In this document: positions 13,942 through 32,274 of the stretch, piece after piece
How the letters are laid out: each line of letters opens with the position of its first letter
Position numbering within the stretch: position 1 is the first letter of the stretch
Origin: Candidatus Yanofskybacteria bacterium RIFCSPLOWO2_02_FULL_41_13
Lineage (GTDB): Bacteria > Patescibacteriota > Minisyncoccia > 2-02-FULL-40-12 > GWA2-44-9
Reading direction: 5' to 3'
DNA: 33,881 nucleotides
Assembly (NCBI GenBank): GCA_001795735.1
Contig: MGKQ01000014.1
Span: 58,789-92,669, forward strand
Notes under the pieces: generated by a model
Database searches by the model: none
What the model was told of the DNA's origin: nothing
What the model saw: only the letters and a program-made list of their open reading frames with translations
Position numbers and translations under genes: made by a program

Positions 13942-15312
13942 TTGACCAACGAAGAATTATGGAAAGCTGTTCTTGGGGAAATGGAGCTTGCCCTCTCACG
14001 GGCAAATTTTACTACTTGGTTTAAAAGCACCTCTATCCTTTCTAAAGAGAGCCAGTCAATTGTTGTCAGCGTGCCTAACGGTTTTATTAAAGAATGGCTG
14101 GAGAACAAGTTTAACAGAAAAATTCTTGATTCCATCAGAACTTATACCCCCGAGGTACGGGAAGTAAAGTATGTAATAGGCATTCCTAAACTAACTCCCA
14201 AGATAGATCTCTCAAAGACTATACTTGACAGAGATTTTGAAGAGAAAACCCCCATCGAATCTGACAAAGATATTGATAGGATAACGAACCTGAATAAGAA
14301 ATACTCTTTTGAGTCTTATATCGTGGGATCTAATAATGAGCTCGCTCATGCCGCTTCACTGGCTATAACGAAAAATTTAGGCAGGCTTTATAACCCGCTT
14401 TTTGTTTACGGCGGGGTAGGTCTGGGTAAAACACACCTTCTTGAAGCCATAGGTAATAAAGTATTGTCGGATTATAAAGATAGTCGGGTTCTTTATGTCT
14501 CGGCCGAAAAACTTACAGCCGACCTTGTCGAGTCTATTAGGAACAGAACTATTGAGGACCTTAAATCTCAGTACTCCAAACTTGATTTACTTATTATTGA
14601 TGACGTCCAATTCATCGCCGGTAAAGAGAAGACTCAGGACATCGTTTTCTCTATATTTAATGAACTTCATGGCAAGAATAAACAAGTAGTTTTGTCATCA
14701 GACCGCCCTCCAAAGGCCATTCCGGCTTTGGAGGAGAGGTTAAGATCACGATTTGAAGGCGGAATGATAGCCGATATAGGCACTCCTGATTTTGAAACAA
14801 GGCTAGCTATCCTTAAACTTAAAGCTACCGAGAAGAAGCATGATTTAGATAATGAAACTTTATCTTATATAGCAACCAATATTCAAAAAAATGTCCGGGA
14901 ACTTGAAGGAGCTTTAAATAGAGTAATAGCTTTTAGCCAAATATATAATAAACCTCCCGGAATAAAAGAAGTTAAAAATATTTTAACAACTTATTTAAGC
15001 AGTCCTTATCGAAAAACATCTCCCCAAGTTGTACTTAAAAGTGTTGCTGATTTTTACAATATATCTTCTGCTGACCTGGTAAAAAGGAGCCGTAAAAAAG
15101 AAGTTGTCAGACCAAGACAAGTAGCTATGTTTCTTCTGCGCGAAGAAACTAAACTTTCTTTTCCTGAGATAGGCCAAAAGCTTGGCGGACGAGACCATTC
15201 AACAGTTATTCACGCCTGTGAAAAAATTAAAAAAGAGGAGTCTATTGATGAAGTTATTAAACAAGACTTGGTTTTAATAAGAGAGCGTGTTTATAACTCT
15301 TTTGATAAGTAG
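13942..15312 (+). CDS. dnaA: chromosomal replication initiator DnaA
   Basis: TTG start; [52 protein letters not shown]. Confidence 0.97.
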
Positions 15313-15532
15313 TTGATAATTTTTGATAACTTAAGTAAAAGTTAAGATTATAGATTGTTATCCTATTTTTATCCCTGATACTTAAATAGGATATAAACAA
15401 AATAGTTTTAAAACACTTTTATATATTTTATATATTTTATCTTTATTACTTTAATTAATATACTTTGTTATAAACATATACTAGTCTATAATAATAGTAA
15501 TAAGTAATATTAACTAAATATTAATTATAATT

Positions 15533-16624
15533 ATGAAAGTAACCACTAATCATAAAAATTTATCTAAAGCAGTCTTAATGGTAGAGAAAATAGTTTCCAG
15601 GAATCATTCCCTCCCTATTCTAAGTAATATTTTATTAAAAACTGAAAATGGAAGGTTAAAAATTTCGGCAACTAATCTTGAATTAGGGATAAACTATTTA
15701 CTTGGTTCAAAAATAGATGAAACAGGAGAAATTACCGTACCGGCAAGGTTATTTTCGGAATTTATAAATAATTTAAATGAGGAGAAGATTACTTTAACCA
15801 CTAAAAATAATATATTAAATATTAATACTGATAAGTATAAAACCCAAATACTAGGCTTTGATCCTAAGGATTTTCCAATCATACCCAAAATTAAATCAGA
15901 TCAATATTTAAATATCCCTGCTAAAATTTTAAAAACTGGTTTAAGCACAATAATTGATTCAATGGCTATCTCAGAAGCAAGACCGGAACTTGCCGGTGTT
16001 TTTATTCAGTTTACGTCAAAACAATTAATATTAGCCTCGACTGACAGTTTTAGATTAACGGAAAAAATAATTGAATTAAAAAATAAAGAAAATAACTCAT
16101 TTATTTTACCCAGGGTAACAGTACTAGAATTGATAAGATTATTAGGAGATTTAAATGATGATATTTTAGTAAAATACAGCGATAACCAAATCTCTTTTTC
16201 TACTGACGATATAGAGATAGTATCAAGGTTAGTTGACGGAAATTATCCAGATTATAAAAAAGTAATTCCTGAAAAATATATTTCAAGACTCTTGGTAAGA
16301 AAAAATGATTTAGAAAAAAATGTGCGTCTAGCAGGAATATTCACCTCAAATATTGCAGATATTAAGCTTAGTTGTAGTGAAAAAAATATTAGTATTAATG
16401 TAAAAAATTCTGACAAAGGGGAATTTCAGGTCGTTACCGAGGCAGTATTAAAAAACGAACCTTTTGATATATCTCTTAATTATTACTATCTTCTGGACGG
16501 ATTAAAAATTATGCCGACAGAAAACATTATTATAGAATATACAGGTCAAGGAAGTCCCTTAGTTCTTAGACCCGAACATGACAATAAAGACCTCACCTAC
16601 ATAATAATGCCTCTTAGAAAATAG
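15533..16624 (+). CDS. dnaN: DNA polymerase III beta sliding clamp
   Basis: MKVTTNHKNLSKAVLMVEKIVSRNHSLPILSNILLK; follows dnaA; C-terminal YIIMPLRK. Confidence 0.95.
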   Translation: MKVTTNHKNLSKAVLMVEKIVSRNHSLPILSNILLKTENGRLKISATNLELGINYLLGSKIDETGEITVPARLFSEFINNLNEEKITLTTKNNILNINTDKYKTQILGFDPKDFPIIPKIKSDQYLNIPAKILKTGLSTIIDSMAISEARPELAGVFIQFTSKQLILASTDSFRLTEKIIELKNKENNSFILPRVTVLELIRLLGDLNDDILVKYSDNQISFSTDDIEIVSRLVDGNYPDYKKVIPEKYISRLLVRKNDLEKNVRLAGIFTSNIADIKLSCSEKNISINVKNSDKGEFQVVTEAVLKNEPFDISLNYYYLLDGLKIMPTENIIIEYTGQGSPLVLRPEHDNKDLTYIIMPLRK

Positions 16625-16691
16625 CCTAGCTTAAATAATGTCAAAACTAACTAGCTAGCAGATTCTAATAAGGCTAGCAACCGGCATCAAA

Positions 16692-16979
16692 GTGCTTAAA
16701 AGTCTTGAAAAAAAATTTGAGAATAAAAAGAACGCTATTAAAATATCAGAGGATAGAACGGGTCAAATAAAATATATTCTCCAAAATTTTTTGAAAGAAA
16801 AATTCGGAGATAAATTAAAAGGAATTTCTATAGGTATTAGTTATAACTCCAAGAATAATAGTCTGGTAGTTAACACTATAAGTAAAGTTTTGGCTAACGA
16901 AATCGCAGTAAGACTCTCGGAGTTTAATGATTTTCTAAAAAAGAACGATATTAGACTGTCAAAAATTATTGTAAAGTAG
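16692..16979 (+). CDS. small protein, possibly DciA/DUF721-like
   Basis: GTG start; SLVVNTISKVLANEIAVRLSEFNDFLKKNDIRLSKIIV resembles the DUF721/DciA core; downstream of dnaN. Confidence 0.5.
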   Translation: MLKSLEKKFENKKNAIKISEDRTGQIKYILQNFLKEKFGDKLKGISIGISYNSKNNSLVVNTISKVLANEIAVRLSEFNDFLKKNDIRLSKIIVK

Positions 16980-29712: not shown

Positions 29713-30393
29713 ATGGTCCAATCACCAAGAAAAAGATTTGAATATGAAAAAGCTCAATCCCTACGTCAGAAGGGTAAGAGCTACGGTGAGATTAAGAAAG
29801 AGCTGGGCCTTTCAAAAAGTACGATTAGTTTATGGTGTCGAGATGTTAAATTGACTGACCAACAAAGGTTTGTCTTGCTCCATAGTTCAAAAAGGATGGC
29901 TACCCAAAAACTTGGAGCCTTAGCAAATAAGGAGAAAAGAGCAAGAGAGGTTTTACAAATTAAAAACTTAGCTAAAGAAGAAATTAAGGAAATAAGCCCA
30001 GAAATTTTTAAGGTAGCTGGAACTATCCTTTATTGGGCAGAAGGGACAAAAACTAAGAATACATCTATTTCGAATTCTGATCCAAGAGTAGTTAAGTTTA
30101 TGGTCAATTGGTGGGAGCAAATATTTGGTATCGGTCCAGCTAATTTAAAAGCCCATGTCCATATTCATTATGCTAATGATGAAAAAAAGATTAAAAAATT
30201 CTGGTCTGAACTAACAAGAATACCTTTAGTAAATTTTGGGAAAAGTTTTGTAAAACCCAAAGGTACAGGACATAGAACCCACATACTTCCAAATGGAATT
30301 ATACAAATAAGAGTCAAGGGGAAGGGGACAGTAAATGTGAAACACCGTATTATGGCATGGGTTGAAAAAATATATGAATTAAGCGTTAGTTAG
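29713..30393 (+). CDS. HTH protein with possible LAGLIDADG-like C-terminal region
   Basis: N-terminal HTH KGKSYGEIKKELGLSKSTISLWCRDV; LYWAEGTKTKNTSISNSDPRVVKFMVNWW...HVHIHYANDEKKIKKFWSEL. Confidence 0.65.
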   Translation: MVQSPRKRFEYEKAQSLRQKGKSYGEIKKELGLSKSTISLWCRDVKLTDQQRFVLLHSSKRMATQKLGALANKEKRAREVLQIKNLAKEEIKEISPEIFKVAGTILYWAEGTKTKNTSISNSDPRVVKFMVNWWEQIFGIGPANLKAHVHIHYANDEKKIKKFWSELTRIPLVNFGKSFVKPKGTGHRTHILPNGIIQIRVKGKGTVNVKHRIMAWVEKIYELSVS

Positions 30394-30399
30394 TAGTGC

Positions 30400-30475
30400 G
30401 CGCCCGTAGCTCAGTTGGTAGAGCAGCGCCCTCTTAAGGCGATTGTCGTAGGTTCGAGCCCTACCGGGCGCACCA
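30400..30475 (+). tRNA. tRNA-Lys(CTT)
   Basis: acceptor GCGCCCG/CGGGCGC, anticodon loop CTCTTAA, T arm AGGTTCGAGCCCT, encoded CCA. Confidence 0.95.
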
Positions 30476-30588
30476 CGTTGGAAAAGTCAAGGATTCAGAT
30501 GTCGCCTCGCTTCGCTCGGCCACCAAATCGTACGGATTTTTCGGGGCAAAAAGAAATTCCCGATTCCGCAAAATATGGTTCGAACGCA

Positions 30589-30663
30589 TTTCGCCCCTCG
30601 ACTGGCTCGGGGCGAGGAAGTCCCCCCCGCGAAAATCCGGAAAGGCGGCGGAGCCGCACGAAT
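30589..30663 (+). repeat. left copy of ~75-bp inverted repeat
   Basis: tttcgcccctcgactggctcggggcgaggaagtcccccccgcgaaaatccggaaaggcggcggagccgcacgaat; reverse complement at 31554-31629. Confidence 0.95.
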
Positions 30664-30801
30664 CAAAACCGCAAAAGAACCCGTTAAAAACATCGGCTCG
30701 AACCATATTTTGTAGAAGCAGAAAAGAAAAATTTTAATCATTTGGTTTAGGAGTGATAAATGGCCTGAAATAGGGCTATTTTGTTTTTTGCGGCTGTGAG
30801 C

Positions 30802-30830
30802 TTGACTTTTATTGGAACTTACAGTATACT
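30802..30830 (+). promoter_or_regulatory. candidate promoter of cassette gene
   Basis: TTGACT (30802-30807)-N17-TATACT (30825-30830). Confidence 0.65.
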
Positions 30831-30873
30831 TGCTACGATGCTTGGGTAAGGTGCTCGAGCTAGAAATCGTACC

Positions 30874-31398
30874 TTGAAAGGGGCAAAAACTATGTTTGGC
30901 ATTCTGAAGAGACGGCGGGCGGCGAAAAGCATTCCCCGAGACGTTTATGAGCTCATCGCGAGCATTTACTCGCGGTATCTCAGGCTCGATCTCGGAAGTG
31001 GCAGGTTCGAGGGCCTCTCCGAACGGGAGAAGTTGCAGGCGATGATCGAGTACGTAAACAACGATGCTGATCTGTTGCGGCTTGAATCGCGCTCCATGAT
31101 CGGTTCCCTCATCGTTGTCAATCAAGTGCGAGGTAACGGCACAGTGACAGGTGCCGGTTCCGGGAGCGGACTAAACGTGTGTTTCGGCCACGAAGGACTC
31201 TACATCTACGACTGGAATGACTTCGCAGACAAATGGCACAACATTCCCCTCACTTCCGTCGATGCTCTCGATGGAGTGGGTATCCAACTGACCGCCGAGA
31301 AGCTGCGAGATGCGATCGCGGACTATACCGAGAAAAAGGAGTACGTTGATCGTGTCGCTCTCTTCGACAAGACGTTCAGGGAAGCTGTCACGGCGTAA
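30874..31398 (+). CDS. hypothetical protein, cargo of inverted-repeat cassette; first ~18 codons with KRRR basic segment
   Basis: own promoter, Shine-Dalgarno-like gaaagggg 12 nt before the ATG region, downstream intrinsic terminator; in-frame GC-rich codon use; real start could be ATG at 30892. Confidence 0.7.
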   Translation: MKGAKTMFGILKRRRAAKSIPRDVYELIASIYSRYLRLDLGSGRFEGLSEREKLQAMIEYVNNDADLLRLESRSMIGSLIVVNQVRGNGTVTGAGSGSGLNVCFGHEGLYIYDWNDFADKWHNIPLTSVDALDGVGIQLTAEKLRDAIADYTEKKEYVDRVALFDKTFREAVTA

Positions 31399-31419
31399 AC
31401 ATTCGCCACACTCATAACG

Positions 31420-31460
31420 ACCTGCCTAGTAGCAAATGCGAACGGCAGGTTTTTCTTTTT
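31420..31460 (+). terminator. intrinsic terminator of cassette gene
   Basis: ACCTGCC...GGCAGGT followed by ttttcttttt. Confidence 0.85.
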
Positions 31461-31553
31461 GATAATTTGAAAGAACAAAGAATTTGCCGCCAAGACTGAA
31501 ATTCGCTAGAATTTCAGTAATCCGAACTCCGCCAAAGAAAACTTGAAATTGTC

Positions 31554-31629
31554 ATTCGTGCGGCTCCGCCGCCTTTCCGGATTTTCGCGGGGGGGGACTT
31601 CCTCGCCCCGAGCCAGTCGAGGGGCGAAA
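31554..31629 (-). repeat. right copy of ~75-bp inverted repeat
   Basis: reverse complement of 30589-30663 apart from an 8 vs 7 homopolymer (G/C) difference. Confidence 0.95.
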
Positions 31630-31660
31630 GCGGTTCGGACTAATTCAAGTATTCTGCACA

Positions 31661-31697
31661 AACACCTAAAATCCCGCTAGGCGGGATTTTAGGTGTT
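31661..31697. terminator. bidirectional intrinsic terminator for 3D-domain gene
   Basis: aacacctaaaatcccgc-tag-gcgggattttaggtgtt perfect stem. Confidence 0.88.
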
Positions 31698-32274
31698 AAG
31701 ATTCTTCAACTATTTCTATTGTTACTTTTTGGCTTCCGAATGCTTTAGCTAAGCTTCTTTCCGGGAACCAGACATCTATATTGTTTGTGTATCTGGCGTT
31801 CATTCTGTCTTCAACGACGAATATTTTTTCTCTGAAGATTTCTGGTATCCTTACCAATGTTCCAAAAGGAACTCTTTTGCCGTTGATATAGAAGTTAGCG
31901 GCTATGACGTTTTTTGTACCAGTACAGACGTTATAATTGGTAGCCGTATGGCAGGGAGTATCATCGGTCTGGTCGGGAGTAGAGGAGTAGCCAGTTGCTC
32001 GGACAGTATATGTTGCCAGAACTTTTATTTGAGGCCCCTCTTCTTCAACGATTATTTTCTTAGTTTCAGCGTTTTGTGGCTGTCTGTTACGCCAAGAAAA
32101 TATTTTTTCAAAAGATAAGCTGGAATTTTCAACTGTAGAAGAGACAAGGGTATTAGCTTGCCCTTCTCTACTCATAAGCCAGTCATAGAAACCTGCCTGA
32201 GTGTTATCTACAAGAACTAGCTGAGCTAAAAGAACAGCGGTCAAAACAGAAAATCTTCCTATAAATTTAACCAC
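31696..32274 (-). CDS. 3D (Asp-Asp-Asp) domain secreted cell-wall-associated protein
   Basis: VRATGYSSTPDQTDDTPCHTA, VIAANFYINGKRVPFGTLVRIP, FVVEDRMNARYTNNIDVWFPERSLAKAFGSQKVTIEIV. Confidence 0.85.
   Translation of the reverse strand: MVKFIGRFSVLTAVLLAQLVLVDNTQAGFYDWLMSREGQANTLVSSTVENSSLSFEKIFSWRNRQPQNAETKKIIVEEEGPQIKVLATYTVRATGYSSTPDQTDDTPCHTATNYNVCTGTKNVIAANFYINGKRVPFGTLVRIPEIFREKIFVVEDRMNARYTNNIDVWFPERSLAKAFGSQKVTIEIVEES

Follow-up and report, generated by a model that had tools for sequence, protein, structure and literature searches.

Large serine integrases (A118, Bxb1 and phiC31) share a domain order, a central dinucleotide core and an outer motif that is shifted by 5 bp between attB and attP; for the A118/LI integrase, the zinc-domain (ZD) motif occupies attP positions 16–24 and lies 5 bp further inward in attB (Rutherford et al., PMC3783163). 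Multi-targeting large serine recombinases are related enzymes found at many genomic targets (Durrant et al. 2022, PMC10083194); the single worked example has an AT-rich motif and a TT core, the others are said to have more complex motifs, and the main text of that study does not mention tRNA. The recombinase family analysed here, termed R, has these traits of both groups. Unlike the phage integrases, to which it is only 23–26% identical, R targets the 3′ end of many tRNA isotypes through a common T-arm motif and has attP twice, inverted, with R and the cargo in separate arms; unlike the multi-targeting enzymes, it has as its target a universal tRNA feature. R elements resemble integron cassettes in their single, diverse, promoter-fed cargo genes and in two-gene arrays joined at a conserved stem–loop site, but they have neither a tyrosine IntI nor attC and are bounded by serine-integrase arms at tRNA genes. 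They are not integron cassettes, as the enzyme is a serine recombinase and the ends are not direct attC-like repeats (attC models were not applied). As in SSV-type archaeal elements with a partitioned integrase, integrase gene fragments lie at the element ends by a tRNA gene, but R stays intact when present and the fragments at the cargo ends are short copies rather than halves of a split gene. The predicted circle, like the yeast 2-micron circle, consists of two unique arcs parted by inverted recombination sites, although the recombinase class differs and the R-element circle is inferred.

The window, the whole stretch of 33,881 nucleotides that was analysed, contains two near-identical inverted arms (30581–30663 and 31554–31640) around a single GC-rich gene right behind tRNA-Lys. 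We conclude that this is very probably the cargo arm of a small integrative element inserted by R at tRNA 3′ ends; its anatomy, its target and its relationship to R are demonstrated by sequence comparison (Table 1). The longest exact match between the arms is 42 nt, compared with at most 20 nt in 200 block shuffles of the same stretch, and homology extends to about 30579–30668 and 31549–31640. An earlier note, made from the sequence alone, had described a transposase-less cassette with inverted repeats of about 75 bp, beginning just after tRNA-Lys. The repeats held: 30589–30663 and 31554–31629 are reverse complements apart from one length difference in a C/G run. They proved to be serine-integrase attachment half-sites rather than transposase terminal repeats, and are the portion of an arm of about 98 bp that survives at both sides. 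The left end held only in part, because the tRNA ends at 30475 but the crossover core lies within that end; the real element ends are the GC cores outside the 75-bp arms. The view of a cassette without transposase can be extended: a large serine recombinase can be recognised as the enzyme that mobilises it, and a relic of this enzyme is still in place.

Table 1 Features of the window element, its target and its surroundings (window positions)
Feature	Position	Strand	Basis or remark
Window element	30472–31657		about 1.2 kb
tRNA-Lys(CTT), integration target	30400–30475	+	ARAGORN, sequence
GTTCGA T-loop motif of tRNA-Lys	30452–30457		12 nt ahead of crossover core
GC crossover core at tRNA end (attL), tRNA positions 71–72	30470–30471	+	attL/attP/attR compared over many loci
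P′ arm and relic of R C terminus, cut off at CGA (30581–30583)	30470–30583	-	tblastn
Left (A-side) P-arm repeat copy, minus outer ~30 nt	30581–30663	+	
A and A2 motifs, copies of R codons KTAKEP and KNIGSNHIL fused by internal deletion	30664–30712	+	
Copy of R-gene 5′ untranslated region	30713–30739	+	
Terminator-like hairpin upstream of cargo promoter	30758–30781	+	
Cargo promoter TTGACT-N17-TATACT	30802–30830	+	
Cargo gene, 168 aa, no family assigned	30892–31398	+	
Cargo terminator, CCTGCC/GGCAGG stem and T-rich tail	31421–31460	+	seen in sequence
B motif, copy of R codons AAKEKLEIV	31530–31553	+	
Right (B-side) P-arm repeat, complete	31554–31655	-	
GTTCGG in right P arm	31633–31638		17 nt ahead of core
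GC crossover core, far end (attR)	31656–31657	+	
Bidirectional terminator of convergent host gene	31661–31697	.	adjoins tRNA-Lys in element-free relative L178

Complete loci read, in order, tRNA 3′ end, core, P′ arm (about 100 bp), R, inverted P′ arm, core, P arm (about 98 bp), cargo, inverted P arm, core and flank. The core corresponds to tRNA positions 71–72 and the first flank base is the discriminator base expected for the isotype (core/flank base: GC/A; Ser CC/G; Glu CT/G; Gln CA/G; Ala CC/A). At least ten isotypes are targeted, including Leu, Phe, Arg, Ala, Glu, Gln, Ser, Ile, Met and, in the window, Lys. In most loci the P′ arm begins with ACCA or GCCA, and the tRNA end is therefore restored. 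In the tRNA, 12 nt separate the T-loop motif GTTCGA from the core, and in the P arm exactly 17 nt separate [TC]CG[AG]AC from it; the former spacing is a general tRNA property, and the fixed position in the P arm is the informative part. The resulting 5-bp offset matches the known attB/attP difference of serine integrases (PMC3783163). What marks a serine-integrase site, a 2-bp core with the attP motif 5 bp further out, is present, as are the marks of an integrative element of tRNA genes: a tRNA 3′ end, direct core repeats and element-free sites (in other species). The B′ half-site, the downstream flank of the tRNA, showed no obvious conservation among loci.

R is a large serine recombinase of about 500 aa that adjoins the cargo in about 30 loci, the A end of the cargo always being proximal to R. 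Its domains are an N-terminal Resolvase, a Recombinase and a zinc ribbon (Pfam matches exceeding the cut-off in three R proteins), the best-matching PDB entry is the A118 serine integrase, and a YARKS motif near the N terminus supplies the expected catalytic serine, by motif only. Of 143 relatives, 60 gave matches to R at E ≤ 1e-60; many of these matches are more distant serine recombinases. The 3′ end of R lies at or overlaps the tRNA 3′ end in more than 20 loci covering ten isotypes, including the Lys of the window. There, only the C-terminal relic is left, so this copy lacks a recombinase of its own and is not autonomous. The relic encodes R residues 450–487 (73.7% identity by tblastn; another search gave 65% over residues 448–493), and the R arm was therefore formerly present here. 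Judging from the sequences, the junction GGTTCGA/ACGCATTT fits a deletion at CGA. In several other loci (for example, L061, L070 and L076), all that remains of the R arm is a short palindrome separating tRNA from cargo; R loss is thus recurrent, and the window copy belongs to a class of cargo elements without R. The same genome has an intact R at tRNA-Glu (G000:C19, 1408–2910; L120) with two small overlapping cargo genes, one arm of that element being broken by a run of Ns. It is possible that this R acts in trans on the window element.

The P′/P junction also sets a −35-like hexamer 17 nt from a −10-like hexamer. In 17 internal attP sites the −35 hexamer matched at a mean of 4.35 of 6 positions; the mean for 41 other P-arm junctions, which include a few attP sites missed by the filter, was 1.95. 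The window is without this junction promoter and has the cargo's own promoter instead.

We propose a model in which the circle, excision and the activity of R are inferred. The circle would comprise R and a cargo gene parted by two inverted copies of attP (P′-core-P). Reading the T-arm GTTCGA, R would use the 3′ half of the tRNA as attB and recombine it with one attP, with crossover at positions 71–72 and the P′ arm restoring the tRNA end upon integration. The integrated form would then be tRNA-[attL]-R-[inverted attP]-cargo-[attR], with the internal attP also making a −35/−10 promoter directed into the cargo. The window copy would have arisen by a deletion at the 3-bp microhomology CGA that took out most of R, the internal attP and the attP promoter and left attL, attR and a cargo with its own promoter. 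Having kept attL and attR but lost R, the element is non-autonomous and, in principle, would be excisable in trans.

Of 95 relatives, 25 have the 75-bp arm, which usually occurs as inverted pairs enclosing unrelated genes; paired arms are about 0.7–2 kb apart and face each other in every pair. An exact pattern for one end matched 39 GTDB contigs, nearly all from Paceibacteria/Parcubacteria, together with one Spirochaetia-labelled and one Omnitrophota-labelled MAG that are possibly binning errors. A strict A-motif pattern gave a single match in 380 genomes of the phylum, but its spacing was too strict (it misses even the window copy) and it gives no estimate of frequency. The genes in 41 cargo arms are mostly unrelated and include dihydroorotate dehydrogenase, a sodium symporter, TylF methyltransferase, HIT, SET, DUF218, YdjM, an integrase-core transposase, beta-propeller proteins and many orphans; one cargo was found at two loci (94% identity). 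A 205-bp end is 99.5% identical in genomes of two different families with different cargo, and the window matches both at 98.4% over 126 bp. The end-motif pattern had no match in viral contigs, R is found in phage and plasmid records at less than 60% identity only, and membership of phages or plasmids, taken as presence in viral or plasmid collections, is not supported. As separate observations, the viral contigs L197 and L198 (IMG/VR) end in a partial R-like match (72% identity, residues 1–117), and the cargo proteins of L055, L072, L073, L075, L079, L122, L134, L135 and L136 have similar N-terminal leaders, often like MNQKGFANIILVVV, and are otherwise different.

The order tRNA-Arg(TCG), tRNA-Lys(CTT) and the gene matching 31696–32274 is conserved in five relatives (G001, G003, G017, G021 and G011), all of them other species and not the same strain. 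In G011, only a few bases separate tRNA-Lys from the terminator and that gene, as expected without 30472–31657; G003 and G017 have other short DNA behind tRNA-Lys.

Three rival explanations deserve consideration. A transposon remnant, that is, a MITE-like unit of a DDE transposase with terminal inverted repeats around its cargo, would account for inverted ends around one gene and for the absence of a recombinase within the unit. However, insertions are always at tRNA 3′ ends or adjoin R units, the flanks have only the tRNA-derived core in common, and about 30 loci have a serine recombinase as the partner gene; the core at positions 71–72 contradicts this reading, which we regard as most improbable. 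We give hardly more credence to a phase-variation switch, in which R would invert the cargo between the inverted attachment arms and so turn it on or off. In its favour are the inverted P arms around the cargo, the promoter in the adjacent attP just beyond the cargo arm and the palindromic GC core. Against it, the orientation of the cargo relative to R is constant in all of the roughly 30 loci, the core is non-palindromic in the Ser, Glu, Gln and Ala elements, and in the window copy R is missing and the cargo is served by a promoter of its own.

An ordinary gene, inherited vertically and flanked by symmetrical palindromes with a regulatory role, would explain a single gene with a promoter and terminator. 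This can be virtually ruled out: there is no homologue in the 95 relatives or the GTDB genome pattern scan, five relatives have the same tRNA and gene order without the gene, and the ends are common to unrelated genes elsewhere. An SSV-like layout with a split integrase and attP inside R was dropped, since R, wherever it occurs, is whole and attP separates the R arm from the cargo arm.

Under the preferred reading of an R-inserted cargo arm, the cargo gene itself remains an orphan. Most of what the earlier note had said of it held: the promoter was confirmed, as was the T-tract terminator (read from the sequence, since the scan tool missed it on account of its long loop). The Shine–Dalgarno-like gaaagggg and the open reading frame also held, with a mended length, as the proposed 174-aa version starts at a TTG that overlaps gaaagggg, which fits the ATG at 30892 better. 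The claim that the gene is more GC-rich than its flanks was borne out (GC 0.544 and GC3 0.663, versus GC3 of 0.28–0.45 in four neighbouring genes). Horizontal acquisition, mobility, non-autonomy and an unknown cargo were all supported. The checks that the note had suggested gave the repeat around unrelated genes in many Paceibacteria, relatives of other species with the same gene order and no element behind tRNA-Lys, and no relative of the 174-aa protein. No homologue of the cargo protein was detected by Pfam, in the GTDB genome pattern scan, in the 95 relatives or in phage records, and its donor is therefore not identifiable. A structure prediction without an alignment (pLDDT 37) was set aside, and Rfam found only tRNAs in the window, plus two sub-threshold matches lying on tRNAs. 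GC-rich cargos (L045, L070, L123, L031, L144, L146, L143, L132, L130 and window 30740–30891) have a stereotyped 5′ layout, as if from one donor pool: a terminator-like hairpin in most, a strong promoter, a leader often containing a small hairpin, and a Shine–Dalgarno sequence.

At the ends of the cargo, the A, A2, 5′-UTR and B motifs each duplicate a short piece of R sequence. In many loci they are 90–100% identical to the R of their own locus, even though the R proteins are only 57–66% identical to the query R. Within the R gene, the segment between B and A is a stem–loop. Among its 19 distinct haplotypes, two synonymous position pairs are Watson–Crick in 37 of 38 cases, and none of 20,000 permutations did as well, a figure that overstates independence because the haplotypes share ancestry. 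Codon identity is highest at B of any segment of the R gene (0.949, mean 0.584) and is 0.874 at A2, and a clade with different amino acids forms another stem. Constraint on the stem–loop inside the R gene is clear. In two-gene cargo arms, the genes are separated by B-hairpin-A, whose stems are unrelated. A bolder reading, which we put forward only as a possibility, is an integron-like system for gene capture that relies on a serine recombinase, with B-hairpin-A as the cassette-joining site; if true, R elements would collect, exchange and express foreign genes at tRNA ends. Apart from this, the apical hairpin of the arm (CCCCTCGACTGGCTCGGGG; window 30597–30616 and L120 302–319) is identical in both copies of this genome and different elsewhere; it looks like a small palindromic repeat that was exchanged into the loop.

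No description of the R-element family was found in the open-access literature searched; preprints and most subscription journals were outside its scope. The enzyme class is known, and what is undescribed as far as we found is the generic tRNA target, the duplicated inverted attP, the two-arm layout of R and cargo, and the common hairpin site. Gene gain in the very small genomes of Paceibacteria is poorly understood, and the R family provides a defined vehicle: its enzyme and attachment sites are identified, its target is a generic one found in every tRNA gene, and its cargo genes have been catalogued. Most tRNAs have the T-arm motif, so R could insert in many genomes and might serve as an integration tool. 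How cassettes are built is a question raised by the hairpin site that lies within the R gene and recurs in cargo arms.

Elsewhere in the window, a gene for a helix-turn-helix protein (29713–30393) lies between tRNA-Arg and tRNA-Lys, which are nearly adjacent in relatives; this genome has five matches to its family, which hints at a further insertion or a repeated gene. The region at about 15000–16800 is strongly AT-rich, with a GC content of 0.23–0.30 versus about 0.41 around it.
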